Source: an uncultured Bacteroidota bacterium
GTDB lineage: Bacteria; Bacteroidota; Bacteroidia; NS11-12g; UBA9320
Length of the DNA stretch: 64,000 nucleotides
Direction of reading: 5' to 3'
NCBI GenBank assembly: GCA_937124965.1
Contig: CAKZLB010000036.1
Coordinates: 186,001-250,000 of the forward strand
Shown here: one piece after another, positions 1,338 through 57,469 of the stretch
Position numbering within the stretch: position 1 is the stretch's first letter
How the letters are laid out: each line of letters starts with the position of its first letter
Translations under genes and position numbers: made by a program
The notes under the pieces: generated by a model
Seen by the model: the letters and a program-made list of their open reading frames with translations, nothing else
Databases searched by the model: none
What the model was told of the DNA's origin: nothing

Positions 1338-1342
1338 TCAGA

Positions 1343-4761: not shown

Positions 4762-4765
4762 CTTT

Positions 4766-8792: not shown

Positions 8793-8821
8793 ATTAAACT
8801 TCTATTCAAATTGAATCTTCT

Positions 8822-13670: not shown

Positions 13671-13676
13671 ATTGCT

Positions 13677-13694: not shown

Positions 13695-13998
13695 GATATT
13701 CAAACGAGTATATGATTAATATCACATTTCAGTTTAACATTCGAGGACTTCAACCCCTACTTATGCAGTAGAAGTTTGCCATGATAGTTGAAAGCTCCAT
13801 AGATATGGGATTCCCAGGATTTAGCATACCACCTCTATCGTTAATTACTAAGGAATAACAGTGTAGTGTGAACATATTAGAAGGAATTTCTGCTCGTAAT
13901 AATTATTATATTGCATTTAATTCATTGGTGTCACAGCTGTTCGTTCTATTGATTTCATAAACATTTATCATCGATGAATTATCTAGCTTTGTTGCCAA

Positions 13999-40158: not shown

Positions 40159-40167
40159 TCTCAAAGA

Positions 40168-42612
40168 ATGACTGAAGAAAATTTTATAGATAGAAATCAA
40201 GAAGAAAGTAGTTTTAGTATAAACTCTATAATTACTATCATCCGTGTATATTGGCATCTATTTGTTATATGCTTAATATTGGCTTTGATTGCTGGTTACG
40301 TTATAAACCGTTACACAAAACCTAGTTACTTGATTAAATCTCAGCTTTTATTAAGCAATGAAACTGAGGGTGCAGAAGGAATGGATATTTTAGGTGGATT
40401 GCCGGGCTCGGGTGCAAGTCCATGGGACCCAACATTTGTAAATGATAAAATCCAAATAATAAAATCTATTAACTTTATTGAACCGATAATCCGCGATTTA
40501 AAGTTTCAAGAGTGCTATTATGCTAAAGGAGATTTAAGAACGAGCGAACTCTATAACAATATCCCGTTCAAAGTACACTTTAAGATTAAAAATCCTGAAA
40601 TGATCGGTAGCTCTTTTGAAATAGAATTCGAAAAGACTACTGCTATTTTTAAAATCATCAACGGAAAAATGATGGGATTTGACGGAACCTTGAAGATGGG
40701 TGAAGTAGTAAACCACCCTTATTTTGATTTTAGTATTACACTTAATGACTCGAATATCAATGATGACTGGGATGAATTATCCAAAGTAGAATACATTTAT
40801 ACCTACAAAAGTCTTGAAAGTGTAACCAATCAATATGCTAGTTCTCTTGATGTTTCACCTATTGCTAAAACAAAAGCAATTGAACTGAGCATTGTATCTG
40901 AAAATAGAAATAAAGGAAAGGAATTCATTAACAAAATTGTCTCAACGTTTATCGAGAAAGGTTTGAACGATAAAAATGAATCAGCTCAAAAAAGTTTAGA
41001 ATTTATTGACAAAGAATTAGATAATTTAACGTCATCGTTAGACAGTATTGAGCATGATTTAGAGGAGTTTAAATCGAGAAAAGGTGTTGTATCACTTGAC
41101 GCACAAATAACTAAAAAGATTGAAAATTCTGCAGATTTAGAGGTACGTAAATACGAAAAAGAAATGTCGCTATTGAGCATTTCAAATTTAATAGAGTACT
41201 TAAAAACACACAAAGACTTATCTAATTTAGCACCTTCAACTGCTGGGATCCGAGAACCATTGCTTATACCTCTGTTAGACGATTTAAGTCAAGCATATAT
41301 TAATTATGAAGAAGTATCCAAGTTTTACACTGCAGAACACCCAAAGGTGATTCGTGCAAACGTTTTACTTGAAAACACGAAAGCTGCGCTAATAGAAAAT
41401 GCAAAAAATGTTAGTTTCGAAACGAAACAACAGTTAAGCGATATAAATAATAAAATTGCTAGCTTAAATAGGGAATTAAATCAAGTTCCAAATATTGAAA
41501 GACTTTATGGGAAATTACTAAGAAAAGGAAGTGTTCAAGAGAAGATATATATTCTATTATTAGAGAAAAAATTAGAATATGAAATTTCTAAGTCTGGAAA
41601 TAAAAGTGGATACTCTCTATTAAACAAAGCTACGGTAGAAAAAAAGACTAGCCCTCAATCGAAGCGAACATACATTTCCGCTTTACTCTTTGGATTACTG
41701 TTACCAGCGGCTTACATTTTCCTTAAAATTTTCCTTGACAATAAACTGAGAAGTAAGGAACAAATTGAGAAAAAAACAGATATTCCTTTCTTAGCAACAA
41801 TCCCTCATTCTAAGCAGGACACTCAATTGATATTTAATTCAAATTCGAAATCGATTATCGCAGAATCATTTCGAAATTTGCGTACGAGTATCAAATACAT
41901 GATTAAGGACAAGGATGAATGTCAAACCATTCTTATTACCTCTACGATTAGTGGTGAGGGCAAAACATTTTGTACCTTAAATGTTTCACATGTCTTAAGC
42001 TTAAATAACAAAAAAGTAGTGTTACTGGGTCTTGACCTTAGAAAACCTAAGCTTCACATTGAATTCGGTATTGATAATAAAAAAGGATTAAGTAATTATT
42101 TAATAGGTAAACTTCCATTAGAAGATGCAATTATTCCAACTGGAATAGAAAATATAGATATTATACCATCGGGTCCGTTACCTCCAAATCCTAGTGAGCT
42201 AATATTAAGTCAGGAGATGAAGGACTTGCTCACGACATTAAAAAAGACATACGATTATATTGTAATTGATACAGCACCTTTAGGACTTGTCACTGACGCA
42301 GTGGATTTAATGCCTCAAACAGACTTATGTATCTATGTAATGCGTGAAGGGTATACACATCTGTCTTCTGTAGATTTTATTGACGAAATGTATGCCAATA
42401 AGAGTTTCAATAAATTGGGTATAGTGCTGAATGATAGTACATTCTCATCGGCCAAATATGGTTACTTGGATTACGGGTACGGATATGGGTACGGATATGG
42501 GTACGGATATGGGTACGGCTATGGAAGTTCAAAGAGCTATGGCTATGGGTATTACGTAAATGACGCTGAACCAGAAAAATCTTGGTGGAGAAATATATTC
42601 AACAAAAAGTAG
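40168..42612 (+). CDS. Wzc-like polysaccharide co-polymerase and BY-kinase
   Basis: An 814-residue inner-membrane protein. The N-terminal Wzz domain is flanked by hydrophobic segments at about 29-50 and 508-528, with coiled-coil periplasmic sequence between. The cytoplasmic tyrosine kinase has Walker A STISGEGKTFCTLN (near 594), Walker A' LGLDLRKPKLH and Walker B YDYIVIDTAPLG. The C-terminal tail is almost pure Tyr-Gly (about residues 762-795), the autophosphorylation cluster. It controls chain length and export. The tail DNA contains three perfect 12-base tandem repeats (42481-42516). The kinase is fused to the Wzz domain as in Gram-negative Wzc. Confidence 0.92.
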   Translation: MTEENFIDRNQEESSFSINSIITIIRVYWHLFVICLILALIAGYVINRYTKPSYLIKSQLLLSNETEGAEGMDILGGLPGSGASPWDPTFVNDKIQIIKSINFIEPIIRDLKFQECYYAKGDLRTSELYNNIPFKVHFKIKNPEMIGSSFEIEFEKTTAIFKIINGKMMGFDGTLKMGEVVNHPYFDFSITLNDSNINDDWDELSKVEYIYTYKSLESVTNQYASSLDVSPIAKTKAIELSIVSENRNKGKEFINKIVSTFIEKGLNDKNESAQKSLEFIDKELDNLTSSLDSIEHDLEEFKSRKGVVSLDAQITKKIENSADLEVRKYEKEMSLLSISNLIEYLKTHKDLSNLAPSTAGIREPLLIPLLDDLSQAYINYEEVSKFYTAEHPKVIRANVLLENTKAALIENAKNVSFETKQQLSDINNKIASLNRELNQVPNIERLYGKLLRKGSVQEKIYILLLEKKLEYEISKSGNKSGYSLLNKATVEKKTSPQSKRTYISALLFGLLLPAAYIFLKIFLDNKLRSKEQIEKKTDIPFLATIPHSKQDTQLIFNSNSKSIIAESFRNLRTSIKYMIKDKDECQTILITSTISGEGKTFCTLNVSHVLSLNNKKVVLLGLDLRKPKLHIEFGIDNKKGLSNYLIGKLPLEDAIIPTGIENIDIIPSGPLPPNPSELILSQEMKDLLTTLKKTYDYIVIDTAPLGLVTDAVDLMPQTDLCIYVMREGYTHLSSVDFIDEMYANKSFNKLGIVLNDSTFSSAKYGYLDYGYGYGYGYGYGYGYGYGSSKSYGYGYYVNDAEPEKSWWRNIFNKK
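42481..42516 (+). repeat. 12-base tandem repeat encoding Tyr-Gly units
   Basis: GGATATGGGTAC occurs three times without change, each copy coding Gly-Tyr-Gly-Tyr. It is flanked by degenerate copies (42469-42480 before and GGCTATGGAAGT after). Copy number changes would keep frame and alter only the number of tyrosines in the kinase tail. Confidence 0.85.
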
Positions 42613-42698: not shown

Positions 42699-43985
42699 GT
42701 GAATAGCAATGTAAAAATCGCCCTAATCGGGTTAGGATATGTCGGATTACCTTTAGCCGTTGAGTTTGCACGTAAGTTTCCAGTGGTTGGCTTCGATATT
42801 AACAAAGCAAGAATTGACGAGTTAAATAAGGGGGTTGACAGTACCTTAGAAGTTGATGAAGCAAATTTAAAGAGTGTTTTAGTATCAAGTTTAGAGGGTC
42901 AAGAAACTGGTTTAATATGCTCTGATGATCCTGAAATGATTAAATCATCAAATGTTTATATCATAACTGTACCTACTCCTGTAGACAAATATAACAAACC
43001 CGACCTGACACCATTAATTGGTGCAACTAAAGGTGTGGCAAAAGTTATGTCAATCGGAGATACTGTAATTTATGAATCAACGGTTTATCCCGGTGCTACA
43101 GAAGATGAGTGTGTGCCAATTTTAGAAAAAGAAAGCGGATTAGTTTTTAATAAAGACTTTTTTGTTGGTTATTCTCCAGAAAGAATAAATCCAGGAGATA
43201 AAGAGCATACGGTAACAAAAATTCTAAAGGTAACTAGCGGGTCCACACCTGAAATTGCAACGCTTGTCGATAACCTGTATAAAGAAATTATTGTTGCAGG
43301 AACACACCTAGCGCCTTCTATCAAAGTTGCAGAAGCGGCGAAAGTGATTGAAAATAGCCAAAGAGATATCAATATTGCTTTCGTTAATGAATTGGCAATG
43401 ATCTTTAACCGAATGAACATCGATACTCATGACGTACTAGAAGCTGCGGGTACAAAGTGGAACTTCTTACCTTTTAAACCTGGTTTAGTTGGTGGTCACT
43501 GTATCGGAGTAGATCCGTATTATTTGGCTCAAAAAGCAGAAGAAGTAGGATATCACCCTGAAATTATTTTAGCTGGTAGAAGATTAAACGACAGTATGGG
43601 AGCATACGTTGCCTCTGAAATGGTCAAGTTAATGATAAAAAAGGGTATGAGCGTAAAGGGGTCAAAAGCCCTAATGCTGGGAATCACTTTCAAAGAAAAC
43701 TGTCCAGATATACGAAATACTAGAGCAATTGACATAGTAAACGAATTGAATGAATACGGTGTTCAAACGTTTGTTTATGATCCTTTGGCATCTTCTGAAG
43801 AAGTTAAACACGAATATGGAATCGATATGTTAACGTCTAAACCGAATTTGAATGATTTTGATGCAATAGTGTTAGCCGTAAGCCATACAGAATTCTTGAC
43901 ATACGACCTTACAACTTCTCCGAATCGAATTATTTATGATGTGAAAGGTATCTTACCAAAAGATTCCGTGGATAGCAGAATGTAA
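42699..43985 (+). CDS. UDP-N-acetylhexosamine 6-dehydrogenase-like (TviB/WbpA type)
   Basis: A 428-residue nucleotide-sugar dehydrogenase: [20 protein letters not shown] is the NAD fold, and [19 protein letters not shown] and [16 protein letters not shown] follow. The catalytic Cys lies in [20 protein letters not shown] and the C-terminal domain starts near [20 protein letters not shown]. It oxidises C6 of a UDP-sugar to the acid; the closest pattern is that of TviB, acting on UDP-GlcNAc or UDP-GalNAc. Start is GTG 42699. The next gene, a uronate-type epimerase, would act on its product. A UDP-glucose dehydrogenase role is less likely but not excluded. Confidence 0.85.
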
Positions 43986-44025: not shown

Positions 44026-45081
44026 ATGGCGATACTTATAACAGGAACTGCTGGATTTATTGGATACCACCTATCAAATCGACTAATTGCAGAAGGTTTT
44101 GATGTGGTAGGATTGGACTGTATAAACGAATATTACGATGTAAATCTAAAATACGCTCGTTTAAAAACAGCCGGTATAAACAAAGAAGAAATCAAATATA
44201 ACAAACTGGTTCAAAGTGACATTCACAGCAACTATCGGTTTATCCAGTGTAAATTAGAGGACAAAGAATCAATTGACTCTCTTTTCGAAAGTCAAAAGTT
44301 TGAAATTGTTGTCAATTTAGCTGCACAGGCTGGCGTTCGATATTCGTTGACGAACCCATATACGTACTTGAGCAGTAACATAGATGGTTTTTTAAATATA
44401 TTGGAAGCTTGTAGGCACAACCCAGTAAAACATCTAGTTTACGCCTCAAGTTCTTCTGTTTATGGTTTAAATACAGACATTCCTTTTTCTGTAAAAGACA
44501 ACACGGATCACCCAATAAGCTTGTACGCAGCTAGTAAAAAAAGTAATGAGCTGATGGCTCACACATACAGTCATCTGTATAATATACCAACGACAGGCTT
44601 ACGATTCTTTACTGTTTATGGTCCATGGGGCCGTCCCGACATGGCATTGTTTATTTTTACGAAAGCCATTATGGAGAATAAACCGTTCGAGGTTTTTAAC
44701 AATGGAGATATGAGTCGTGATTTTACATATATCGACGATATTGTAGAAGGAATCACTCGATTAATGAAGAAACCACCAGTTAAAAATCCGAACTATAATC
44801 ACTCGGATCCTAATGCCGCTAAAAGTTCTTCTCCGTATCAAGTGTTTAATATAGGCAATAATGGACCTATTTCGTTGATGGAGTTTATAGAAGCTATTGA
44901 AAAAGCTACAGGTAAAGAAGGGATCAAAGATTTTCAACCAATTCAAGCAGGTGATGTACCAAGAACTTATGCAGACGTTGAAGATCTTTTCAACTACGTA
45001 AACTTCAGACCAGGTACACCCGTTGAAAAAGGAATTCAAAATTTCATCGATTGGTATACTGATTTTTACACTGTTTCTTAA
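44026..45081 (+). CDS. NAD-dependent UDP-uronate 4-epimerase (SDR family)
   Basis: A 351-residue extended SDR enzyme: ILITGTAGFIGYHLSNRL with the G-x-x-G-x-x-G motif, VVGLDCINEYYDVNLKYARL typical of UDP-glucuronate 4-epimerases, VYASSSSVYG, and the catalytic SLYAASKKSNELMAHTYSHL (Y-x-x-x-K). FFTVYGPWGRPDMALFIF matches the same group. It would epimerise UDP-GlcA or, given the TviB-like neighbour, UDP-HexNAcA (as TviC does). A 206-base gap with an inverted repeat separates it from neuB. Confidence 0.88.
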   Translation: MAILITGTAGFIGYHLSNRLIAEGFDVVGLDCINEYYDVNLKYARLKTAGINKEEIKYNKLVQSDIHSNYRFIQCKLEDKESIDSLFESQKFEIVVNLAAQAGVRYSLTNPYTYLSSNIDGFLNILEACRHNPVKHLVYASSSSVYGLNTDIPFSVKDNTDHPISLYAASKKSNELMAHTYSHLYNIPTTGLRFFTVYGPWGRPDMALFIFTKAIMENKPFEVFNNGDMSRDFTYIDDIVEGITRLMKKPPVKNPNYNHSDPNAAKSSSPYQVFNIGNNGPISLMEFIEAIEKATGKEGIKDFQPIQAGDVPRTYADVEDLFNYVNFRPGTPVEKGIQNFIDWYTDFYTVS

Positions 45082-45287: not shown

Positions 45288-46286
45288 ATGACTTTTATTA
45301 TCGCTGAAATAGCTCAGGCACACGAAGGTAGCCTAGGCATTGCCCATAGTTACATTGATGCTTTAGCCAAAACAGGAGTTGATGCTGTAAAGTTTCAAAC
45401 TCATATAGCCGCTGCTGAAAGTAGTGAATATGAAGAGTTTAGAGTAAATTTTAGTTTTGAAGACAAGACGAGGTTCGACTATTGGCGTCGAATGGAATTC
45501 ACAGAAGAACAGTGGTTAGGATTAAAAAAACATTGTGAAGACCAAGGGATGGAGTTTATTTCATCCCCTTTTTCGATCCAAGCAGTAGAACTTTTGGAAC
45601 GCATTGGTGTAAAGAGATACAAAATTGGTTCTGGTGAAATGTCAAACTACTTGATGTTGCAAAAAATTGCAGAAACAGGAAAGCCAATAATTCTATCTTC
45701 TGGGATGAGCGACATGAAAGAACTTGATGATACGGTAGCTTTTTTAAGTAAATGGAATAACGAACTAAGTTTGTTACAATGCACAACTGCATATCCAACA
45801 CAGCCCAAAGAATGGGGCCTAAATATGATTCCAGTTCTAAAAGACAGGTACAAGTTTCCAATTGGATTCTCGGATCATTCTGCTAATATTTTTGCAGGTA
45901 TAGCGGCTGCAACATTAGGTGCAGACATTTTGGAGTTTCATGTTGTATTCAATCACTCAATGTTTGGACCTGACGCTAAAGCTTCTTTAACGATGGAACA
46001 AACTGCAATGCTGGTAGAAGGAGTTAGAAAAATTAACACATCACTGGATACAAGTTATAATAAAGATAGTATTGAAAAATATGACGCCCTGAAAGTTCTC
46101 TTTGGTAAAAGTTTAACCACTAAACACGCTGTAAAAAAGGGGCACACAGTTAGCATAAACGACTTGGAAACTTCCAAGCCAGGGAATAAAGGTATTTCTG
46201 CCAAACATTTTGAACAAATTATTGGAAAAAAGTGGGCGCATGATTTAACTTCACATCATTTTATTAACCAAAACGATTTAGAGTGA
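45288..46286 (+). CDS. neuB: NeuB-type nonulosonic acid synthase
   Basis: The 332-residue enzyme condenses phosphoenolpyruvate with an N-acetylmannosamine-type sugar to form a nonulosonic (sialic-type) acid. The TIM barrel starts IIAEIAQAHEGSLGIAHSYI, with AVKFQTHIAAAESS, FISSPFSIQAVELLE, YKIGSGEMSNYLML and ILSSGMSDMKELD. The SAF antifreeze-like domain at the C-terminus covers KSLTTKHAVKKGHTVSIN and ETSKPGNKGISAKHFEQ. Similar enzymes make Neu5Ac, legionaminate or pseudaminate. Since neither LegB/LegC nor PseB/PseC enzymes occur here, a NeuNAc-like product from ManNAc is the simplest reading. It overlaps neuC by 4 bases. Confidence 0.92.
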   Translation: MTFIIAEIAQAHEGSLGIAHSYIDALAKTGVDAVKFQTHIAAAESSEYEEFRVNFSFEDKTRFDYWRRMEFTEEQWLGLKKHCEDQGMEFISSPFSIQAVELLERIGVKRYKIGSGEMSNYLMLQKIAETGKPIILSSGMSDMKELDDTVAFLSKWNNELSLLQCTTAYPTQPKEWGLNMIPVLKDRYKFPIGFSDHSANIFAGIAAATLGADILEFHVVFNHSMFGPDAKASLTMEQTAMLVEGVRKINTSLDTSYNKDSIEKYDALKVLFGKSLTTKHAVKKGHTVSINDLETSKPGNKGISAKHFEQIIGKKWAHDLTSHHFINQNDLE

Positions 46287-47449
46287 ATAAAAAAAGGAAA
46301 ATAGCAGTAGTAATAACTGCAAGGCCAAGCTACAGTAGGATTAAAACTGCTCTACAGGCAATCAAAGATCATCCTGGTTTAGAACTACAATTGGTTGTAG
46401 CCGCTTCTGCCTTGTTGAACAGGTATGGCTCTGCAGTTAAGTATATTGAAAAAGATGGATTTGAAATTGAAGCTAAAGTTTTTAACGTACTTGAAGGTGA
46501 AAACCTGACAGCAGCTGCTAAAACAACTGGAATAGGTATTCTAGAACTTTCTACAGTTTTTGAAAACATCAAGCCAGACGTTGTAGTAACTGTTGCCGAC
46601 AGATTTGAAACCATGGCAACGGCGATTGCAGCCAGCTATATGAATATTCCACTTGTGCACATTCAAGGAGGAGAAGTCACAGGTAACATTGACGAAAAGG
46701 TGCGGCACGCAATAACAAAGCTGTCTGATTTACATTTGGTAGCTTCTCCAAAAGCATTGGAACGAGTAATCAAAATGGGTGAAAAACCTGAAACGGTAAT
46801 ACTAACTGGCTGTCCAAGTAACGATTTAGCAAATGAAGTTTTAAAAAATCCGTCACTAGATTTTGACCCGTTTGTAAAATATGGAGGTGTTGGTGCCGAT
46901 GTTAACCTAGAAGACGGGTATTTAGTAGTGATGCAACATCCTGTAACCAATGAATATGAGCTCAGTAGAAATCATATTGAAGAAACAATAAAAGCGGTAT
47001 CCAAAATTAATATGCCTACGTTATGGTTCTGGCCCAACGTAGACGCAGGTGCGGATGGAACTTCAAAAGGTTTGAGAATATTTAGAGAGAACAAACCAGA
47101 ATCAGCCAAGAAAATTCATTTCTTCAAGAATATGGAACCAGATGACTTTTTGAAGCTACTGAAGAACTCAAAATGTTTGATAGGAAATAGTTCAGTGGGT
47201 ATCAGGGAATGCGGATTTTTAGGGGTCCCAGTAGTTAATATTGGTACACGACAACAAGGAAGAGAGCGAAGTAAAAATGTTATTGACTGTGGTTACAATG
47301 AAGAAGAAATAGCACAATCAATAAACAGTCATCTTGAACATGGAAATTACACTTCTGACCCTATTTACGGAAATGGAGATGCCGGATTAAAAATAGCAGA
47401 TGCTATTTTGGCATGGAACCCAACGATAAACAAAATTCTTAATTATTAA
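46283..47449 (+). CDS. neuC: Hydrolysing UDP-GlcNAc 2-epimerase (NeuC type)
   Basis: A 388-residue GT-B-fold epimerase that would form ManNAc and UDP from UDP-GlcNAc (or the LegG equivalent from a trideoxy sugar). Landmarks: IAVVITARPSYSRIKTALQA, VTVADRFETMATAIAA, VHIQGGEVTGNIDEKVRHA, KLSDLHLVASPKALER, then MQHPVTNEYE and GNSSVGIRECGFLGVPVVN near the end. It starts with GTG at 46283, overlapping neuB by 4 bases (GTGA). Its stop overlaps the next ATG by one base. These overlaps indicate a translationally coupled unit. Confidence 0.92.
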   Translation: MNKKRKIAVVITARPSYSRIKTALQAIKDHPGLELQLVVAASALLNRYGSAVKYIEKDGFEIEAKVFNVLEGENLTAAAKTTGIGILELSTVFENIKPDVVVTVADRFETMATAIAASYMNIPLVHIQGGEVTGNIDEKVRHAITKLSDLHLVASPKALERVIKMGEKPETVILTGCPSNDLANEVLKNPSLDFDPFVKYGGVGADVNLEDGYLVVMQHPVTNEYELSRNHIEETIKAVSKINMPTLWFWPNVDAGADGTSKGLRIFRENKPESAKKIHFFKNMEPDDFLKLLKNSKCLIGNSSVGIRECGFLGVPVVNIGTRQQGRERSKNVIDCGYNEEEIAQSINSHLEHGNYTSDPIYGNGDAGLKIADAILAWNPTINKILNY

Positions 47450-48189
47450 TGATTGTAACATTAGACTCATTTCAATACGGGCGATTCACCGGAGAAAAAT
47501 TTGACAAAGATGAGGTCCTGCGTATCACAGAAAACCTGGATTACGCATTTTTTGCTTCTCTTGATGAAATAAATTCTGATTTTGGTGTAGAATCCATTGA
47601 AAAAACGAGCGCATGGATTAACATTCATGAAAACCCAGAGGATCAAATCGCAATTTGCAGCCCAACCTGCAGAAATGAAATAAGAAGAAGTTTTAAAATA
47701 GAGGACTTTACTATTGAAATTAATACAACTCCCCTCGAGGAGTTGTTTGCGTTTCATCTGCAATGTGAAAAAGAACGATCGTGGTTCCCAGTTCCACCCG
47801 AAGAACTTGCTGCTTCTGTAGTTGTATGTGTTAGATATCAAGATGAATTAATTGCAGGGATGTCTGCTTATTTTGAAAAAGACTTTTTAAGAGTTGGACG
47901 TATTTTTAGTAGAAGAAAATCAGAAAAGTACCAAGATCTCCGTCAAGTTGTATTTTCAAGTGCTTCTAGAAGAGTTGTTTATGAATTGACTAGAATTGCA
48001 TTAGAAAAAGGATACAAGTCTCTAGATTTAGGAGGAGTCGCAATTGATGACGCTGCAAAATCAGGTATTACAAAATTCAAAATGTCCTTTGGATCAGAAG
48101 TTAAGCCAATATATTTAGGTAGATTCCATGGCGAAAAACAAACTGAATTATTTGAGTATTGCTCAAAAAACGGTTTTGATTTAACGTAA
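47449..48189 (+). CDS. FemAB/GNAT-like acyltransferase in the nonulosonic acid cassette
   Basis: The 246-residue soluble protein shows the C-terminal half of a Fem/GNAT-fold acyltransferase: LIAGMSAYFEKDFLRVGRIF, VVYELTRIALEKGYKSLDLG and GVAIDDAAKSGITKFKMSFG, followed by VKPIYLGRFH. The 'DLGG...GI..FK..FG' pattern is that of FemAB-like N-acyltransferases that use aminoacyl-tRNA or acyl-CoA. The first ~120 residues are not recognised. Placed between neuC and the formyltransferase genes, it may transfer an acyl group to an amino group of the sugar. Start shares one base with the neuC stop (TAATG). Confidence 0.7.
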   Translation: MIVTLDSFQYGRFTGEKFDKDEVLRITENLDYAFFASLDEINSDFGVESIEKTSAWINIHENPEDQIAICSPTCRNEIRRSFKIEDFTIEINTTPLEELFAFHLQCEKERSWFPVPPEELAASVVVCVRYQDELIAGMSAYFEKDFLRVGRIFSRRKSEKYQDLRQVVFSSASRRVVYELTRIALEKGYKSLDLGGVAIDDAAKSGITKFKMSFGSEVKPIYLGRFHGEKQTELFEYCSKNGFDLT

Positions 48190-48198
48190 CAAACAGAA

Positions 48199-49164
48199 AT
48201 GATTCAAATCATCGGTCATAATGAAATTGTCCTTAACTTATGCAAAACGTTAAGAGCCAATAAAATACCATTTAAAGTTTTTAGTAACAAAAACGTTCTC
48301 GAAATAGGCGAAGAATATACTCAACTTGAAACTTTAGAGGAATTAAAGACAGAATTAAAAAAAAATATTGATTCTCTCATTATCTCAGCTGGTGCACCTT
48401 GGATTTTCACTACTGCTTTTTTAGAAACCTTTGAACCGACAGGGATATTTAACATCCATGGAACGCCCCTGCCACATGATAGAGGTGGTACTATTGTTTC
48501 ATGGCTTATTTTAAACCAAAAACGCATTGGTAATGCAATTATTCATAAAATAGTAAAGAATCCAGATGCTGGTCCTGTATTGATGACTAATGAATTCATT
48601 TATCCGTCTAGTTGTCATTTTCCAATTGATTATTTGAAGGAATACAATAGACAACAAGAGTTATTGGTAACTGAATTATGCCTCAATTGGAGTATAGGTA
48701 AAATAGATTTAACCAAAACTTCAGAGCAACCGCATTACCTTTCGACATATTGGCCTAGATTAAATGCAACTTTCAATGCGAGTATAGACTGGAATTGGAC
48801 CGGTGAAGAAATTGCATTGTTTATAAGAGCGTTCGACGAACCGTATAATGGTGCTCAAACCCTTTGGAGAGGTAAAACTATCTGGTTGAAAAATGCCTTT
48901 TTTCAAAAAGATGCAAATTATCACCCATTTCAATGGGGCATGGTATATCGTTATAGAGAACTGCGCGACACTTCTTATTTAGCGATTGCGGTAAATGCAG
49001 GTACTCTGTATGTAGAAACATGCCTTGATAATGACAAAAATAGTCTGATGAAAAAGATTAAAGAAGGCGATAGACTATACAACACAGACGAAAAATTATC
49101 CTCTTCCAAACAAAGAACAATAAAAACCAAAACTGGTTTTGGCACCCAAAATCAACTACAATGA
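48199..49164 (+). CDS. Formyltransferase-family enzyme, probable sugar N-formyltransferase
   Basis: The 321-residue protein has the formyltransferase fold with the catalytic triad in order: N85 and H87 in FNIHGTPLPHDRGG and D123 in NPDAGPVL. The N-terminal part is an atypical, shorter start (IQIIGHNEIVLNLCKTL), as in sugar N-formyltransferases rather than Fmt. There is a C-terminal OB-like part (WRGKTIWLKNAFF, then RYRELRDTSYLAIAVNAG). With 10-formyl-tetrahydrofolate it would formylate an amino sugar. Its stop overlaps the deacetylase start by 4 bases. A cytoplasmic housekeeping role is covered by fmt at 32211. Confidence 0.78.
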   Translation: MIQIIGHNEIVLNLCKTLRANKIPFKVFSNKNVLEIGEEYTQLETLEELKTELKKNIDSLIISAGAPWIFTTAFLETFEPTGIFNIHGTPLPHDRGGTIVSWLILNQKRIGNAIIHKIVKNPDAGPVLMTNEFIYPSSCHFPIDYLKEYNRQQELLVTELCLNWSIGKIDLTKTSEQPHYLSTYWPRLNATFNASIDWNWTGEEIALFIRAFDEPYNGAQTLWRGKTIWLKNAFFQKDANYHPFQWGMVYRYRELRDTSYLAIAVNAGTLYVETCLDNDKNSLMKKIKEGDRLYNTDEKLSSSKQRTIKTKTGFGTQNQLQ

Positions 49165-50075
49165 ATTTACTTATTGTAAACTTTCATTATTATGGTAATG
49201 AACAATACACCTCTGGCATCTACCCTGTTACTCCAGAGTTTTTTCAACGCCAAATAAGCACGTTAGCCAAAGAATATACGTTTATTAGTCAAGTTGAATT
49301 GGCTACGTATATACAAGAAAATAAGTACCCTGAAGGTAACTTTTGCTTAATAACATTTGACGATGGCCTGAAGCAGCAAATGCAGGTGTATAATTGGCTT
49401 TTAGAAAATAAAATACCAGCAATATTTTACGTTCCAACTAAGCCAATTACGGAATCTATTGTCCTAGACGTCCATAAGCTTCATTTTGTTAGAGCTTCTA
49501 TAGATGACACGGACTTAATAAAGTTGTTAAAAAAAGATACTGCTTATGACTATAGTATTGAAGATGCTAAAAAAGCAGAAGGGCAATATAAATATGATAA
49601 CGACCTTGCTCGAGAAATTAAATATCAGTTAAATTTCAAACTAAACGCTGAAGCCAAATCAGCTTTTATTAATTCCACTTTTAGTAGCTTATTCCCTAAC
49701 GAAGAAAAGTTTTCGCAAGACCTTTACATGAGTGAAGAGGATATCATAAAAATAGCTAAATCAAATATGCTTGGGTCTCATGGACACGAACATATCCCGT
49801 TAGCTCCAAGTCCAAAAGCTAAAAGTGATATCGTTAATTCCATCAAGTATTTAGAAAAACTCACCGATACTCCTGTTCTCTCGTTTTCGTACCCATATGG
49901 CAGTAAAGCCGCAGTTAACGATGAAATAACAGAACATTTTGCTGGATCGAATGTAGCGTTTGCGCTTACTATGTGGAGAGGAATCAATGATTTCAGTGGT
50001 TCCATTAACCCATTTCATCTACTTAGGGTTGATACAAATGATGCACCTGGTGGTAAAAATTATAAAGGGTTATAA
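49161..50075 (+). CDS. NodB-type deacetylase
   Basis: A 304-residue polysaccharide deacetylase-family protein: LIVNFHYYG at the N-terminus, CLITFDDGLKQQMQVYNWL with the metal/catalytic D67-D68 pair, and LGSHGHEHIPLA with the metal-binding His residues. FSYPYGSKAAVND and HLLRVDTNDAP follow. No signal peptide is seen, so it acts in the cytoplasm, on a small sugar or nucleotide-sugar and not on exported polymer. It overlaps the formyltransferase by 4 bases. In this setting it could expose the amino group that the formyl- or acyltransferase then modifies. Confidence 0.82.
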   Translation: MNLLIVNFHYYGNEQYTSGIYPVTPEFFQRQISTLAKEYTFISQVELATYIQENKYPEGNFCLITFDDGLKQQMQVYNWLLENKIPAIFYVPTKPITESIVLDVHKLHFVRASIDDTDLIKLLKKDTAYDYSIEDAKKAEGQYKYDNDLAREIKYQLNFKLNAEAKSAFINSTFSSLFPNEEKFSQDLYMSEEDIIKIAKSNMLGSHGHEHIPLAPSPKAKSDIVNSIKYLEKLTDTPVLSFSYPYGSKAAVNDEITEHFAGSNVAFALTMWRGINDFSGSINPFHLLRVDTNDAPGGKNYKGL

Positions 50076-50083
50076 AAGATAAA

Positions 50084-51025
50084 ATGCTCAAAATATTAAT
50101 AGCCGAAACAAAAGATTTCAGCGAAAAGGCAGTAAAAGCTTGTCAAGAATTTGCTGAAGTTGACTTAAGAGACATCGGAAATGATGATGTCGAAGATGCA
50201 CTTAATTCATACGACGTCTTTTGGTGTCGTTTAGGGTTTAAGTTAACGGCTGATAGAATTTTAGGAGCAGACAAGTGTAAATTTATTATTTGTCCGGTAA
50301 CGGGATTAGATCATATTGACTTAGTCGCGTGTGAACAAAAAGGAATTACTGTTATAAGTTTAAAAGGAGAAACTACATTTTTGAAGAAAGTTAGAGCCAC
50401 TGCAGAACTTACTTTGGCTTTAACGTTGGCTTTATTCAGAAACGTACCTAAAGCAGTACAATCCACTATAGAAGGTACATGGAACAGAGAGCCATTTAAA
50501 GGGATTGAAATTTTTGAAAAAAAAATTGGGATTCTTGGTTTTGGCAGACTGGGTCAAATTACTGCCGCCTATTTTAAAACAATGGGAGCTGATGTTTATG
50601 TATATGATGTAAAAGACATTAATACCAATGAGTTTACAGTCGTTTCCAGCATGAATGAACTGTTTGCAACTGTTGATGTGGTTTCAATTCATGTCAACTT
50701 AAATGCAGAAAACAAGCACTTAGTTAAAGCTGAACAAATAAACCAAATGAAACGTGGTGGGTATATTATAAATACTTCACGAGGTCAATTGGTACGCAGT
50801 AAAGATCTTGTCAGAGCATTAGAAGATGGACAATTGGCCGGTGCAGCAGTTGATGTTATTGAAGAAGAATTTAATCACCAAAGTGATCTCTTGTTATCGT
50901 ATTGCGCCAATCATCAAAATTTAATGATCACTCCTCACATCGGCGGTAATACCTATGAATCATTCGCTAAAACTGAATTGTATATGGTTGAAAAACTAAA
51001 GCAAAAACTGAATAAAGCACTATGA
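50084..51025 (+). CDS. D-2-hydroxyacid dehydrogenase (SerA-like)
   Basis: A 313-residue NAD-dependent dehydrogenase of the D-isomer-specific 2-hydroxyacid family. GILGFGRLGQITAAYFKTMG is the Rossmann dinucleotide motif and DVYVYDVKD the acidic NAD-binding strand. VSIHVNLNAENKHLV and GGYIINTSRGQLVRSKDLV carry the catalytic Arg, and the catalytic His lies in ITPHIGGNTYES. No ACT domain for serine feedback. It overlaps neuA by 4 bases. Inside the cassette it may make a hydroxy- or oxo-acid donor for sugar acylation, or oxidise the sugar. Canonical serine synthesis is less likely given the context. Confidence 0.8.
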   Translation: MLKILIAETKDFSEKAVKACQEFAEVDLRDIGNDDVEDALNSYDVFWCRLGFKLTADRILGADKCKFIICPVTGLDHIDLVACEQKGITVISLKGETTFLKKVRATAELTLALTLALFRNVPKAVQSTIEGTWNREPFKGIEIFEKKIGILGFGRLGQITAAYFKTMGADVYVYDVKDINTNEFTVVSSMNELFATVDVVSIHVNLNAENKHLVKAEQINQMKRGGYIINTSRGQLVRSKDLVRALEDGQLAGAAVDVIEEEFNHQSDLLLSYCANHQNLMITPHIGGNTYESFAKTELYMVEKLKQKLNKAL

Positions 51026-51723
51026 AAATATTAGCTATCATTCCAGCGAGGGAAGGCTCAAAGCGTGTGCCCCTAAAGAACTTTAGGCCGTTTGCAGAAA
51101 CTACCTTGCTTGATCTTGCCATACAGCAAGCGTTGAGTGCCACGTTAATTGATAAAATTGTCGTGAATTCAGATGCTCCACAAGTTAAAGAAATTGCTAA
51201 AAAATATGAGTCAGAAGGAATCGAATATTTGGAGCGTCCGAAAGAGTTAGCTACTGACGAGTCTCCTGCGATTGATTACATGTTGCAAACATTAGATCAC
51301 TATGAATCTAAAGGTCTATTCTATGACCTAGTTGTAATTATTCAAGCAAGCAGTCCTTTGAGAAATGGTAGCGACATTGATTCAACCATTCAGTTACTCC
51401 TTAACAATGAACAAGCAGATTCGGCTGTTAGCGTTGTTATGTTATCACACATGATTCATCCTCACAAGATGAAAACTATGAATGGTGATACACTACGACC
51501 TTGGTTAGTAGATGAAGGTCAAAAAACTTCTGCTCACGAGTTACCTGACATTTTTGTTAGAAATTGTGCAGTGTATGTTTTTAAGTCTGCACACCTGAAG
51601 AATGGAATTACTTACGGACCACAATCTTTAGGCTATGTAATGCCTGTCGAAACTTCAGTAGACATCAATGATATGATTGATTTTAAGTTCGCTGAATATT
51701 TATTCAAGGAAAAAAACACGTAG
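51022..51723 (+). CDS. neuA: CMP-nonulosonate cytidylyltransferase
   Basis: The 233-residue enzyme activates the nonulosonic acid as CMP-sugar. IIPAREGSKRVPLKNFRPF is the CTP-binding motif (A-R-x-G-S-K-x-x-x-x-K-N). KIVVNSDAPQVKEIAKKY, RPKELATDESPAIDYML and IIQASSPLRNGSDID are standard acylneuraminate cytidylyltransferase segments, and PVETSVDINDMIDFKFAEYL holds the conserved D-I-D. It closes the coupled run from neuB. Together with neuB and neuC this makes the CMP-activation of a sialic-type acid well supported. Confidence 0.93.
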   Translation: MKILAIIPAREGSKRVPLKNFRPFAETTLLDLAIQQALSATLIDKIVVNSDAPQVKEIAKKYESEGIEYLERPKELATDESPAIDYMLQTLDHYESKGLFYDLVVIIQASSPLRNGSDIDSTIQLLLNNEQADSAVSVVMLSHMIHPHKMKTMNGDTLRPWLVDEGQKTSAHELPDIFVRNCAVYVFKSAHLKNGITYGPQSLGYVMPVETSVDINDMIDFKFAEYLFKEKNT

Positions 51724-51738: not shown

Positions 51739-53163
51739 ATGCTTCGAAATAAAATCAAAGACATTGTAAAAGATTCTTCCATTTATGGGCTAAGCAAAAT
51801 ATTAGGTCAAGCTGTTAGCTTTTTTCTAATCCCTTTATATACTACCTACCTTTCGCCCGAAGACTATGGTATTTTAAGCATTTTGGGCTTAGCGTCAGTA
51901 TCATTTGCAATTTTAATGACGTTTGGCATTGACTCAGCCACCTACAGATATGTAGGAATGAGTAAAGATGAAAACACACAGAAACAGTATATCACAAATG
52001 CTCAGATACTAACCCTAGCTTCGATACTGTTTTTTGTTTTGGTATTGGTAATATCTTCCAAACCTGTCAATGCCTTTACCTTAAATCCCAACAGTCCATT
52101 ACTTTATTTATTTATAGCAATAACCAATGCAGTTTTTTCTAGTATTTCTTCTGTTCCTAGAGCATTTTTAAGAATTAACAGAAAAGTCAAAGTTATCGCT
52201 ATATCAAGTCTAATTAATATTTTCACAACTATTGGTTCTACGTTGGTTTTTGTAGTTGTGTTAAAATTAGGTGTAGTTGGTGCATTGTTAGGAGGTTTAG
52301 TGGGAACAGTAACATCGTCCGTTTACATAGTTTCATTCACTAACATTCCTAAACTTTCACATTTCGATTGGAAATTATCCAAGGATCTGATTTACTATTG
52401 TTTACCTTCGCTCCCACATCAAATATTTTCATTTTCCATTCCATTGTATTCTCAGTGGTCGGTTAAGCAATTATTGTCTCTCGATGATCTTGGGCTTTAT
52501 GCAGTAGGACTAAAATTCACCTTGCCTTTAACACTGGTATTAGGGATGTTTCAACAAGCCTACGCCCCTTATAAGTTTCAAATATTAAAGGAGGATAAAG
52601 ACCCCAAAGCAACTTTTAGTAGCATAATGAATCTGTTCGTCATTGGGTTTGGCGTTGCTGTTTTATTTATTTCATTTTTTGGTGGAGAAATTTTGAAACT
52701 CATGACAGCGAGTTCATACCATGAAGCTGCAGTATTTGTTTTTTACATAGCCCTCATACCATTTGCACAAGGATTATACTTTATGTTATCTGCAGGATTG
52801 GAGTTTGCAAAAAGTCCAGTTTACAGACCCTTTATTAGTGGAGCTGGATTGCTCACGGTTCTGCTCTGTAACAAATGGCTTATATCCAATTATGGTGTTC
52901 CAGGTGCTGCAATATCAGTTGTGTTGTCTTGGCTGGTAATGGCAGTCGGACATTTTATCTATGCTTATAAACTTTATCCGATTAAATACAATTGGCTTTT
53001 GATTATTCCAGTAATAGTAGCGGTTCCAATGTTAGGTTATTTTATTAATGACCTATATCAAATTGGTTTAATGTTAAAGGCTTTAACATTCGCCGTGCTG
53101 CTTGGTATATTTGGGTTTATAACAAACAGGAAGTATAAATTATCTAGTTTGTTAAAACGATAA
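51739..53163 (+). CDS. Oligosaccharide flippase, Wzx-like
   Basis: A 474-residue polytopic protein with about 12-14 hydrophobic segments and the MOP/Wzx pattern: DIVKDSSIYGLSKILGQAV at the start, SFFLIPLYTTYLSPEDYGIL, and LGLYAVGLKFTLPLTLVLGM in the middle. The flippase moves undecaprenyl-linked repeat units to the periplasm, where the Wzy-like protein and the Wza/Wzc-like system would polymerise and export them. It lies 15 bases after neuA on the same strand. Flippases are poorly conserved, so substrate cannot be read. Confidence 0.9.
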   Translation: MLRNKIKDIVKDSSIYGLSKILGQAVSFFLIPLYTTYLSPEDYGILSILGLASVSFAILMTFGIDSATYRYVGMSKDENTQKQYITNAQILTLASILFFVLVLVISSKPVNAFTLNPNSPLLYLFIAITNAVFSSISSVPRAFLRINRKVKVIAISSLINIFTTIGSTLVFVVVLKLGVVGALLGGLVGTVTSSVYIVSFTNIPKLSHFDWKLSKDLIYYCLPSLPHQIFSFSIPLYSQWSVKQLLSLDDLGLYAVGLKFTLPLTLVLGMFQQAYAPYKFQILKEDKDPKATFSSIMNLFVIGFGVAVLFISFFGGEILKLMTASSYHEAAVFVFYIALIPFAQGLYFMLSAGLEFAKSPVYRPFISGAGLLTVLLCNKWLISNYGVPGAAISVVLSWLVMAVGHFIYAYKLYPIKYNWLLIIPVIVAVPMLGYFINDLYQIGLMLKALTFAVLLGIFGFITNRKYKLSSLLKR

Positions 53164-54218: not shown

Positions 54219-55595
54219 ATGAAAACGTTAGCTAATGTATTCGAATATATTATTGAAGAGGTTAATGACTTAAAGAAAAACGGAGTTTCTTTTGTTTGGC
54301 AGAATATTGATTTAAGCGAGTTATTGATTTCAGATTTGATTTCCGCTGAAAGATCAATGCAACAAATAAACAGACTTAAGTTAAGTACTGTTTTAAAAAT
54401 GAAACTCAGCACTGTAAAGAAAAGATTCAGCTATAACTCAAAAAGTACACCTTTAAACGGTACCATTTTAGTATTCGTTAACGAGTTAAATCAATGGGAA
54501 AACATCGAACCCGTAGTTAATATCTTAATTACAAAGGGGATAAAAATAGACGTCATTAGTACAAAAGGAAATATTCTTAATACCCTTAATACTGATATTT
54601 CTAGTGTTAAGTATATCAAAGGATATCATTTCCCTGTTGGTCAACTCTTAAGAAATACGCGTAACCATAAAATGGTTACATTGATAAACAATAACATTCC
54701 AAAAATTTCATACCTATTTTCTGAATTCAACAAAATACTTTCAAACTCTAATTACAAATATGTAATGATTGGCAACGATATCACTTCTGATGGTAAATTA
54801 TTGTCAATTCTATCTAATCGAAAAAATATTCGTTCAGGTAGCATTCAACATGGAAGTATGAACAGAGTAAACCCAATAAATGGGTATAGTAGAGTAAATG
54901 ATTTTTTTGTTTTTGGAAAAACTTCAGCACGCGAGTTAGTATATTTAGGAATATCAAAAGACAATGTTGCAGTTAGTGGTTGGCCCATGCAGCAGCAATT
55001 TAAAAACAACCTCACTAAGGCAAAGTCAGCAAAAAGCGTTGTTCGAGGTGCCGACATTTTGGTGTGCTTAAGTGGTCCTGGACACAGTGTAAGCGAGACT
55101 CTTCATAATACTATTATTGAATTAATTGCAAGGCTTCAACGTGAGTTGGATTTAGACGTAATTGTTAAATTACACCCAAAAGATAAGAAAGAGTATTATA
55201 GTACTTTACTTGAAAACAAAACAACCATATACGACAACACTTCGCTATTAGAAATGAGCAGCTCTTTACTCGAATTATTCACTAAAGTAAATTGCACTAT
55301 AACGGTAGCAAGTACTGCCGCATTAGAGTCACTGTTGGCCGAAACACCTGTGGTTACAATTGATATTGATAAATCATTTAATGACGTGGATTACATTCAG
55401 GATGGTTTAACTTTTCATTCTACAAATTATACAGAACTAAAACAACAGTTCGAAAAAATATCTAATGGAAACAAGAGTGATTTGTGGTATGAAATGAAAA
55501 ATAAAATTGAGGATTATTATCATAAATATTTTGATGAGAACTATAATCCTAGTGGATACATTGCAAATAAAATATTAGAAGTATGTGCGGAATAG
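54219..55595 (+). CDS. Predicted GT-B glycosyl- or phosphotransferase
   Basis: The 458-residue soluble protein has a two-domain GT-B look. The N-terminal part is variable. From about 270 on come LVCLSGPGHSVSETLHNTII, VIVKLHPKDKKEYY and TITVASTAALESLLAETPVV. The 'KLHPKD...ASTAxLESLxxxTPV' segments are as in capsule sialyl-, polysialyl- or glycerol-phosphate transferases (Capsule_synth/CDP-glycerol type). In this locus it is a candidate for the sugar-transfer step from CMP-nonulosonate, but the donor is not shown. Its end overlaps the AsnB-like gene by 13 bases. Confidence 0.65.
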   Translation: MKTLANVFEYIIEEVNDLKKNGVSFVWQNIDLSELLISDLISAERSMQQINRLKLSTVLKMKLSTVKKRFSYNSKSTPLNGTILVFVNELNQWENIEPVVNILITKGIKIDVISTKGNILNTLNTDISSVKYIKGYHFPVGQLLRNTRNHKMVTLINNNIPKISYLFSEFNKILSNSNYKYVMIGNDITSDGKLLSILSNRKNIRSGSIQHGSMNRVNPINGYSRVNDFFVFGKTSARELVYLGISKDNVAVSGWPMQQQFKNNLTKAKSAKSVVRGADILVCLSGPGHSVSETLHNTIIELIARLQRELDLDVIVKLHPKDKKEYYSTLLENKTTIYDNTSLLEMSSSLLELFTKVNCTITVASTAALESLLAETPVVTIDIDKSFNDVDYIQDGLTFHSTNYTELKQQFEKISNGNKSDLWYEMKNKIEDYYHKYFDENYNPSGYIANKILEVCAE

Positions 55596-57469
55596 CTGGA
55601 GTAGTCGGGTCTAATATCTCTTCAAACATTGTGGCTAAAATGGTAGACTCTATAAAGCATAGAGGACCAGATGGTGATGGACATTTCGCTGATGAGAATG
55701 TACTTTTACTGCACACCCGCTTATCTATACTTGATGTAAGTAATAATGGTTCTCAGCCAATGTACTCGGCGGATGGTCGATATGTTATCATTTTCAATGG
55801 TGAAGTTTACAACCATATTGAATTACGCTCAAAATATTTAAAAGGCGAACGTTTCAATTCTGAAAGTGATACCGAAACTATTTTAAAACTATACATCAAG
55901 TTAGGCGAGAAATTCGTCTCCCTATTGAGAGGAATGTTTGCTTTCTCAATATATGATAAAAAGGAGAAAGTATTATTCGGAGCAAGAGATAGAATGGGCA
56001 TTAAACCGTTGTATTATAGTGTATTAAATCAAACACTTGTATTTGCTTCAGAAATATCAGCGATACGAGAATCTGGGGTAATACCAAATACAATTGAGAA
56101 AAAAGCGGTGCGACAACTATTTATGTATGGCTCAATTCAGTTTCCATACTCAATCGTAAAAAATGTATTTTCATTAGCACCTGCTCATAGTTTTCGATTT
56201 TGCAATGGGGAGTTAACAACAAAACCATATTGGGCTTTTCCTGAAAAAATTGATACCACAATATCTTTTGATTCGGCAAAAGACATGTTCAGAGAAAAGT
56301 ATGAAGACGCAGTATCTGCAAGGTTATTATCTGATCGAAAAGTTGGTGTATTTTTAAGCGCTGGCCTTGACAGTGTATCTATTTTAGCCGCTCTTAGTAA
56401 TTTAAACAAAAAAGAAGTCGATACATTTACTATTGGATTCACCGACTCACATAAAAAATTTACATCTGAAATTGATGGTGCGCGTTCACTTGCTTCACAT
56501 TTCGGATTCAATAATATATCAAAGTCTATTAATAGTTATGATATTGGTGAAGATGTCAGATACTTCATGAGCTTAATAGACCAGCCTTCAATTGATGGTT
56601 TTAACACGTATCTAGTATCCAAAGAAAGTAAGTCCATATTAACTGTTGCATTAAGCGGGCTTGGTGGCGATGAACTTATGTTCGGCTATCCAAGAAATGT
56701 TAATTTATACAATAAGCTAAGAACCAATTTCAAGCTACCTTCTTCCGTTAGTGATAAACTTCTTATAGACCAATTATATGGTTCAAAAAAGAATTTAACC
56801 AGAGATCGATTGTTAAAATATTGGGGGAATCCTAAAAATTTGAAATTGAACTACTGGGCTTCTCGTCTAATAAACTCTCCTTATAAAATAAACAACGAAC
56901 TGTTCGAACAAGAATCTTCAACTACAGTAGAAAGCGACCTTGAAGATTTTTATAAGTTTGATACACAAAACTACAAAGGCGACACTTTTAATACCATTAG
57001 CTATTATGAAATGCGCAGCTTCATGCTAAGTCAGCTGCTTCGCGACATGGATGTTGCATCCATGATACATGGTATTGAGACAAGATTTCCACTGATAGAT
57101 CACAACTTGGTTGAATTCCTATTTTCATTGCCTGCTCATTATAAATTCAGACCAACAAATAAAAATAAGGACAATAAAACTGGTAGTATGTCCTACAATG
57201 AAAGTGGTGTGAAGTACTTACTCTCGCAAAGTTATTCTGATGTTTTGCCTGACGGATTTCTAAATAATACGAAACAAGGGTTTCAATTACCCATTCATAA
57301 GTGGTTTCAAAATAGTATCGGTGAAAAACTAGCTGATGATTTATCAAGTGATAAACTGAAAGATCTAGAGTTTAACCCAAAAAAAATAAAAGAACTTCAA
57401 CAGACCTTAGTTGATGGGAACTTTACACCTAATCATTTTTTAATGAATATCTTAATCGCAACGATTTAG
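55583..57469 (+). CDS. asnB: AsnB-like glutamine-dependent amidotransferase
   Basis: A 628-residue class II amidotransferase/asparagine synthase. The catalytic Cys2 opens MCGIAGVVGS, and the glutaminase domain holds HRGPDGDGHF and FNGEVYNHIELR. The synthase domain has an ATP-pyrophosphatase loop VFLSAGLDSVSIL (SAGLDS in place of the usual SGGLDS) and LSGLGGDELMFGYPR. Such enzymes in surface-polysaccharide loci often amidate a uronic acid and do not make asparagine. The TviB-like dehydrogenase upstream would supply the acid. It overlaps the GT-B gene by 13 bases. Confidence 0.85.
   Translation: MCGIAGVVGSNISSNIVAKMVDSIKHRGPDGDGHFADENVLLLHTRLSILDVSNNGSQPMYSADGRYVIIFNGEVYNHIELRSKYLKGERFNSESDTETILKLYIKLGEKFVSLLRGMFAFSIYDKKEKVLFGARDRMGIKPLYYSVLNQTLVFASEISAIRESGVIPNTIEKKAVRQLFMYGSIQFPYSIVKNVFSLAPAHSFRFCNGELTTKPYWAFPEKIDTTISFDSAKDMFREKYEDAVSARLLSDRKVGVFLSAGLDSVSILAALSNLNKKEVDTFTIGFTDSHKKFTSEIDGARSLASHFGFNNISKSINSYDIGEDVRYFMSLIDQPSIDGFNTYLVSKESKSILTVALSGLGGDELMFGYPRNVNLYNKLRTNFKLPSSVSDKLLIDQLYGSKKNLTRDRLLKYWGNPKNLKLNYWASRLINSPYKINNELFEQESSTTVESDLEDFYKFDTQNYKGDTFNTISYYEMRSFMLSQLLRDMDVASMIHGIETRFPLIDHNLVEFLFSLPAHYKFRPTNKNKDNKTGSMSYNESGVKYLLSQSYSDVLPDGFLNNTKQGFQLPIHKWFQNSIGEKLADDLSSDKLKDLEFNPKKIKELQQTLVDGNFTPNHFLMNILIATI

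Follow-up and report, generated by a model that had tools for sequence, protein, structure and literature searches.

A Bacteroidota gene cassette that may remodel a nonulosonic acid between NeuB and NeuA

Which product is made by a sialic acid-type operon that places four additional genes between neuC and neuA? The question is raised by a 64,000-nucleotide stretch of DNA from an uncultured Bacteroidota bacterium (assembly GCA_937124965.1, contig CAKZLB010000036.1, positions 186,001 to 250,000), referred to below as the window. It contains a run of seven genes in the order neuB, neuC, a FemAB-like acyltransferase gene, a formyltransferase gene, a NodB-type deacetylase gene, a D-2-hydroxyacid dehydrogenase (HADH) gene and neuA. 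A sequence-only reading of the window had proposed that an N-acetyl group is removed in the cytoplasm and replaced by formyl or another acyl group. Our comparisons lend support to this proposal, and the cassette is best read as remodeling a free nonulosonic acid between its synthesis by NeuB and its activation by NeuA. We assign a probability of about 60% to cytoplasmic N5 deacetylation and re-acylation of a nonulosonic acid in some form, with substrates that we infer.

In the scheme that we propose, NeuC and NeuB would make N-acetylneuraminic acid (Neu5Ac) by the ordinary route and NodB would remove the N5-acetyl group of free Neu5Ac in the cytoplasm. The FemAB-like enzyme would then transfer an amino acid from an aminoacyl-tRNA onto the freed amine, and the formyltransferase would cap the new alpha-amine to give N5-(N-formyl-aminoacyl)neuraminic acid. 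HADH would alter the same molecule, plausibly at the 2-keto-acid end, and a specialised NeuA would make the cytidine monophosphate (CMP) donor for a surface polysaccharide. The exact sequence of NodB, tRNA-dependent aminoacylation by FemAB and formyl capping, for which we infer the substrates, the order and the HADH step, is put forward tentatively, at somewhat short of even odds.

Conservation of the seven-gene cassette

The positions of all seven genes were confirmed (Table 1), and the tight neuB-to-neuA block described earlier was borne out: the successive junctions measure −4, −1, +9, −4, +8 and −4 bases, four of the six being overlaps and the largest gap 9 bases. Scores exceeded the family cut-offs for PF03102, TIGR03568, Formyl_trans_N and _C, Polysacc_deac_1, 2-Hacid_dh_C and CTP_transf_3. 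NeuB stayed below the TIGR03569 equivalog cut-off of 399.65 and matched the wider PF03102 family plus a SAF domain. The cassette enzymes are small and have no evident membrane anchors.

Four loci carry the set, namely the window, L022 (in genome G567, from another family of the same class), L027 and L028. The genes for NeuC, the FemAB-like protein, the formyltransferase, NodB, HADH and NeuA follow each other in identical order and with tight packing in all of them, a recurrence in three further loci that goes beyond chance. neuB precedes neuC in three loci, in one of which (L028) it is truncated by the contig end; L027, a contig of 5.4 kb, begins within neuC, so that neuB falls outside it. Both cassette carriers with named genomes are Bacteroidota.

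The set is rare. Searching 147 related genomes with the formyltransferase at E 1e-10 gave four matches, the window and three weak ones (28–34% identity), and at E 1e-20 only the window and G325 matched among 395 genomes of the phylum. A joined FemAB-like and NodB query against 395 genomes of the class, with at most three candidates scored per genome, matched six, the FemAB-like part only in the window and G567; within this scope, close FemAB-like relatives occurred only beside NodB and formyltransferase genes. The 395 phylum genomes held three distant FemAB-like matches (E 9e-12 to 6e-11). A scan of named genomes gave ten formyltransferase relatives, two of which were the further cassettes L027 and L028; since these were found via the formyltransferase, they do not test the exclusivity of the FemAB-like gene. 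Among mobile elements, phages gave no formyltransferase match and viral contigs one distant relative (L037). Plasmids gave 20 formyltransferase matches, each below 60% identity, and no FemAB-like match, and neu genes were absent from the annotation of the two plasmid neighbourhoods examined around such matches (L012, L013).

The gene trees of NeuC, the FemAB-like protein and NodB group the window with L028 (support 99–100; NodB 100/100). The HADH tree groups L027 with L028 (99/99), in conflict with the NodB quartet, and the formyltransferase quartet of the four cassettes gave no resolved topology. In agreement with this conflict, the window and L027 are 30% identical in the FemAB-like protein and 76% in the formyltransferase. 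Single genes thus seem to have been exchanged between loci while set and order persisted, which speaks for one function.

Enzymes of the putative acyl-exchange module

The FemAB-like call was weak by sequence, the PF02388 score lying under the Pfam cut-off, and was upheld by structure comparison. The predicted structure (mean predicted local distance difference test score, pLDDT, 84) has a GNAT-type Fem fold. In Foldseek the top matches were Sbb17 and Sba18 (16–18% identical, E 7.5e-14), and ranks 1–25 were all Fem-, MprF- or phosphatidylglycerol-synthase-type proteins, known or presumed users of aminoacyl-tRNA; the first acyl-CoA enzyme, VipF, came at rank 26. VIA-align gave Z scores of 19.5 for Staphylococcus aureus FemX (root mean square deviation, rmsd, 2.5, 162 residues aligned) and 19.4 for both Sba18 (rmsd 4.5, 209 aligned) and Sbb17 (rmsd 4.3, 210 aligned), the best plain GNAT entries being 2HQY, of unknown function, at 14.4, 7Q3A at 14.2 and VipF at 13.4. 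A sequence profile run against the PDB also placed Sbb17 first (E 7e-7). Residues F210-K211 are invariant in the four cassettes and align with the F-K pair of Sbb17, Sba18, FemA and S. aureus FemX; in the passages concerned of PMC12945691, the catalytic lysine of this pair is K305 in FemXWv and belongs to F328-K329 in DhpH-C. An acetyl-CoA motif was found in none of the four cassette proteins.

The structures of Sbb17 and Sba18 were solved with streptothrisamine, an amino-sugar acceptor, and the related Orf11 glycylates streptothrisamine using Gly-tRNA, as described in the same source (PMC12945691). The window protein shares fold and F-K pair with these streptothricin transferases of the Orf11/Sbb17 type, whose acceptor is an amino sugar, and differs from Sbb17 and Sba18 by being shorter (246 residues) and only distantly identical. 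Judged by its modeled structure, the FemAB-like enzyme is probably aminoacyl-tRNA-dependent, a shared fold alone being no proof of the donor. tRNA genes gave no clue to the amino acid: none lies near the cassette, the window's three being at 19.9, 22.0 and 33.2 kb.

The formyltransferase has the N-x-H...D triad predicted for it (N85, H87 and D123), a motif present in all four cassettes, and the cassette proteins form a clade against nine relatives (support 97/96). A housekeeping role is unlikely, as the gene at 32181-33137 gives the better formyltransferase match and is probably the housekeeping fmt. NodB keeps its metal residues D67/D68 and H207/H211, and T[FI]DDG and SHGxxH occur in all four cassettes. 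As had been read from the sequence, its N-terminus is not signal-like, the first 60 residues containing no hydrophobic stretch (best 19-residue mean 0.34).

Where does the amine come from? We scanned ten non-cassette loci with a formyltransferase relative (L008, L029–L037). A NeuB relative was present in six and a DegT- or GSAM-type aminotransferase lay near in nine; relatives of NodB, HADH and the FemAB-like protein were found in none. Three of them (L030, L034, L036) are of pseudaminic type, with PseG-, PseI- or PseB-type genes, some under cut-off, and a homologous formyltransferase 35–39% identical to that of the window (best segment); unlike the cassette they have aminotransferase genes and no NodB, FemAB-like or HADH relative at E 1e-5. 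In those loci the amine can come from an aminotransferase; the seven-gene cassette has no such gene, so that NodB is the likely amine source here. A legionaminic or pseudaminic skeleton seems less likely. The window genome has no PseB (TIGR03589) above cut-off, with one 641-residue CapD-like match below it (LegB-specific models not searched). It has two DegT-type genes, of which the nearer belongs to the same long locus and follows neuA at a distance of about 23 kb downstream.

The dehydrogenase, the neuBCA core and a divergent NeuA

HADH carries the nucleotide-binding motif (GxGRxG) and the R, E and H motifs in all four cassettes; R, E and H are the catalytic residues of D-2-hydroxyacid dehydrogenases. 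A profile of the four HADH proteins, run against the 395 phylum genomes at E 1e-60, matched five: the window, G206, G333, G169 and G165. In the latter four (HADH relatives in L047–L050) the gene adjoins neuA, in one run with neuB, neuC and neuA of the same kind, and the 17.5–18 kb examined held no FemAB-like, formyltransferase or NodB relative. By gene linkage, HADH belongs to the neuBCA core and not to the acylation genes. The window's type of NeuC was found at E 1e-90 in eight of 188 genomes, that is, the window, three with HADH (G165, G169, G206) and four without (G195, G218, G226, G245), in which neuA adjoins an asparagine-synthase-like gene, and the three-gene module was absent from all seven other carriers. 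FemAB, formyltransferase and NodB are therefore best seen as a module inserted into a neuBC-HADH-neuA core. Had the four added genes been scattered in relatives, the idea of a coupled block would have suffered; the full set is neu-linked in all four loci, and single members do occur elsewhere (NodB relatives in L023–L026, HADH in L026 and L047–L050).

Identities within cassettes, compared with those between cassettes and plain loci lacking the module, were 57 vs 56% for NeuB (three cassette and seven plain rows), 72 vs 67% for NeuC and 66 vs 31% for NeuA (four and eight rows each). For HADH (four and four) they were 59% within cassettes, 39% between cassettes and plain loci and 40% among the latter. 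Between cassettes and module-less loci, NeuB identities ranged from 48 to 66% and NeuC identities from 59 to 73%. NeuB and NeuC are thus near the plain loci and NeuA is not, so that the pathways seem to diverge after the NeuB step. In the NeuA tree a starred branch (100/99) sets the loci without HADH apart from the rest, a grouping that was rejected on the NeuB (p 0.0012) and NeuC (p 0.0225) trees. Approximately unbiased (AU) tests did not reject cassette monophyly for NeuC (p 0.486) and were borderline for NeuB (p 0.057, with three cassette rows, one of them partial); the likeness of NeuB and NeuC to the plain loci therefore rests on the identities and on the failure of the HADH-minus loci to form a clade. 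No NeuA column was fixed differently according to the presence of HADH.

NeuA is the oddest enzyme of the set, cassette-specific and probably specialised. The sequence-only reading had counted it as a standard part; the gene is indeed present, but its divergence was overlooked. The Neisseria meningitidis enzyme (NmCSS, 1EYR) served as reference for 45 NeuA-like rows, which include 30 of the 38 places of a NeuA search and one row (L103) without letters at the site. Window NeuA has Ala171 at the position of R165, the motif reading SAHELP or AAHELP in the four cassettes, AEHELP in G206 and RRQDLP in others. Arg at the positions equivalent to NmCSS 164/165 is missing from all five and present in 38 of the 39 other rows. 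The metal motif is D-I-N in the same five and D-I-D in NmCSS (D209, D211); its third residue is D in 38 of the other 39 rows, and in many of these rows the first position is N. Cassette NeuA belongs to the wider CTP_transf_3 family and lacks the carboxylate Arg and the complete metal Asp pair of sialate synthetases. According to the relevant passages, R165 of NmCSS forms a salt bridge with the Neu5Ac carboxylate by docking and the R165A variant is inactive (PMC2901514), and the equivalent Arg is termed catalytic (PMC6580227). No compensating Arg was identified in cassette NeuA.

The remaining row without Arg is L104, where a distant 2-hydroxyacid dehydrogenase gene adjoins and the locus has no NeuB match. 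HADH is adjacent in all six Arg-lost rows and in three of 38 Arg-kept rows (Fisher p 1.2e-5 uncorrected, 0.008 with relatives collapsed), five of the six being one lineage and sampling having begun from the cassette; adjacency meant within 1.5 kb for rows of the NeuA search and was taken over longer stretches for the others. The association suggests that the sugar is changed at a second site, its C1-C2 end, but it is not strict, since three HADH loci keep the Arg. A further-reaching reading, which we regard as improbable, is a tRNA-aminoacylated, formyl-capped sialic acid whose NeuA has ceased to hold the C1 carboxylate because HADH changed that end. If true, the product would be a nonulosonic acid with changes at N5 as well as at C1/C2, bearing a formyl cap such as that on initiator methionine.

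Some related arrangements were also seen. In L111 (G014, 8209-11163) an overlapping run comprises a gene that looks cyclase-like by eye, a NeuA-like gene that lacks the Arg pair, a gene for a distant 2-hydroxyacid dehydrogenase and an SDR-like gene; there is no NeuB match, and the run is a second pairing of a CMP-transferase with a 2-hydroxyacid dehydrogenase. The G206 locus (L047; neuB-neuC-HADH-neuA, Arg lost) has a BshB-like deacetylase gene of PIG-L type further down (13649-14569). L026 (G780, 1-5160) carries HADH and NodB relatives at opposite ends of a 5.2-kb contig with glycosyltransferase-like genes between them and no neu gene in view.

Alternative readings, known systems and surroundings

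Several points weigh against remodeling of a free nonulosonic acid at N5. The sample consists of four loci, two from metagenome-assembled genomes and one on a 5.4-kb contig, the FemAB-like protein scores below its family cut-off, and the module enzymes may use a different acceptor sugar. In L022 the flippase gene is closely followed by DegT-, PseB- and GNAT-type genes, so that an aminotransferase is available there. The cassette NeuA clade has a support of 93/97, below the tool's full mark. Finally, the lost NeuA Arg contacts C1 rather than N5, and the module-less G206 lacks this Arg too; N5 chemistry therefore does not explain its loss. A last point against it, the NodB relatives that stand beside a formyltransferase without a FemAB gene, leads to the best-surviving rival.

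In this rival, NodB frees N5 and the formyltransferase acts on it directly to give 5-N-formylneuraminic acid, the FemAB-like enzyme acting elsewhere, e.g. as an O-aminoacyltransferase. We consider it unlikely but well worth weighing. Of the four non-cassette NodB relatives examined (L023–L026), three (L023–L025) adjoin a different, shorter formyltransferase and have no FemAB gene, which fits direct formylation. On a Halorussus plasmid (L057, 5837-13258) a neuA-like gene, SDR, Gfo/Idh, two formyltransferase genes (one on the opposite strand), neuB, a PIG-L-type deacetylase gene and neuC stand in a row, the deacetylase lying between neuB and neuC; N5-formyl sugars may be reached independently by this route. 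The structural matches of the FemAB-like protein also include enzymes of the MprF type, in which aminoacylation takes place on the hydroxyl of a lipid. As to the product, 5-N-formyl-legionaminic acid is known from Halorubrum (PMC6137143), and N-formyl is listed as one of the groups that occur naturally at C5/C7 in sugars of this class (PMC6388019). Direct formylation, however, leaves a gene present in all four cassettes without a role at N5, and in L052 a FemAB-like gene and a NodB relative, both distant, form a pair with no formyltransferase in view. Taken together, the NodB-formyltransferase comparisons favour deacetylation followed by acylation, with the sugar amine or an amino acid as the site of the formyl group. 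Two other neighbourhoods are recorded here. In L024 (1593-3927) a NodB relative, a short formyltransferase gene and a gene for a NeuA-like protein that retains RRQEL stand side by side, and in L009 (G114, 7922-10324) a formyltransferase gene lies between two genes that look, by eye, like polysaccharide deacetylases.

That the three-gene module acts on a different N-acetyl sugar of the surface polysaccharide, its position in the neu operon being coincidental, seems to us a long shot. The polysaccharide locus is long and has many sugar genes, and NodB relatives without neu genes in view occur in L023 and in L026 (there beside an HADH relative), on contigs of about 5 kb. Against this, neuC precedes and HADH-neuA follows the module in all four loci, the formyltransferase family is often nonulosonate-linked, as the NeuB relatives of six of the ten other loci indicate, and NeuA is cassette-specific. 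The earlier suggestion that the dehydrogenase produces a hydroxyacid which the acyltransferase attaches to the sugar fared poorly and is very doubtful. Its motifs are intact and the genes co-localised, but HADH stands beside neuBCA without FemAB, NodB or formyltransferase in the four other loci, where an unlinked acyltransferase is possible, and the FemAB-like protein lacks an acetyl-CoA motif and resembles aminoacyl-tRNA-dependent enzymes. Least credible of all is transient formylation as in the ArnA/ArnD path of lipid A, with the formyl group added and then removed by the NodB-type enzyme: formyltransferase and CE4-type hydrolase genes do adjoin, but the NodB model matched the N-deacetylases PplD, IcaB and PgaB (E <3e-6), with ArnD no higher than rank 40 (E 0.63), its NCBIfam matches were IcaB, PgaB and a weak chorismate mutase with no ArnD, and an ArnD-type deformylase is thus not supported.

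The sequence-only reading knew of no named pathway with exactly this set, and a full-text literature search, which was not aimed at aminoacylated sialic acid, likewise found no publication describing it. The nearest known product is the 5-N-formyl-legionaminic acid seen in glycans of Halorubrum sp. PV6, for which LegI, LegG, LegF and a predicted formyltransferase are described (PMC6137143). Like the window, that pathway combines genes of the NeuB, NeuC and NeuA types with a nearby formyltransferase gene; unlike the window, it has LegB, LegC and LegH, the likeness being one of description and not of gene comparison. In the main text of that paper the word deacetylase does not occur, and its passages on the pathway name no FemAB-like or HADH gene (PMC6137143). 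With the standard Neu5Ac route of NeuC, NeuB and NeuA the cassette has NeuC and NeuB in common, each about as similar to its counterparts in plain loci as to those in the other cassettes; it adds four enzymes, and its NeuA lacks the carboxylate Arg and one metal-site Asp. If the proposed remodeling is true, tRNA-dependent aminoacylation would join the chemistry of sialic acid-like sugars, and there would be an exception to the rule that CMP-sialate synthetases need a carboxylate Arg. It would also provide a route for cytoplasmic N5-acyl exchange, a step that the passages on 5-N-formyl-legionaminic acid leave unaddressed (PMC6137143).

The cassette is flanked on the 5' side by Wza-/Wzc-like, Ugd and epimerase genes and on the 3' side, beyond the flippase gene, by glycosyltransferase genes and an asparagine-synthase-like gene. 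To judge from these gene names, the surroundings are a surface polysaccharide locus, which continues beyond the end of the window.

Table 1. Cassette genes and neighbouring genes in the window
Gene or product	Position	Strand	Evidence or remark
neuB, nonulosonate synthase	45288..46286	+	PF03102 232 bits; TIGR03569 303.3 bits
neuC, hydrolysing UDP-GlcNAc 2-epimerase	46283..47449	+	TIGR03568 385.2 bits, cut-off 235.9
FemAB-like, probably aminoacyl-tRNA-dependent N-acyltransferase	47449..48189	+	PF02388 18 bits (cut-off 24); predicted fold
Amine N-formyltransferase (Fmt/ArnA type)	48199..49164	+	PF00551 and PF02911 above cut-off; N85 H87 D123
NodB/CE4-type de-N-acetylase, without signal-like N-terminus	49161..50075	+	PF01522 (Polysacc_deac_1) above cut-off
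D-2-hydroxyacid dehydrogenase (HADH)	50084..51025	+	PF02826 (2-Hacid_dh_C) 164 bits
neuA-like CMP transferase, without carboxylate-binding Arg	51022..51723	+	CTP_transf_3 71 bits
Wzx-type flippase	51739..53163	+	immediately 3' of neuA; name read from sequence
Nucleotide-sugar epimerase	44026-45081	+	just 5' of neuB; counterpart 5' in L022 too
Ugd	42699-43985	+	just 5' of neuB; counterpart 5' in L022 too
Wza/Wzc-like genes	39409-42612		upstream of cassette; names read from sequence

The gene at 54219-55595 of the window has weak matches to surface carbohydrate and capsule families and is a candidate transferase for the nonulosonic acid. The asparagine-synthase-like gene of the window lies at 55583-57469; in L066, L067, L068 and L069, four neuBCA-type loci without HADH, such a gene directly adjoins neuA in every case.

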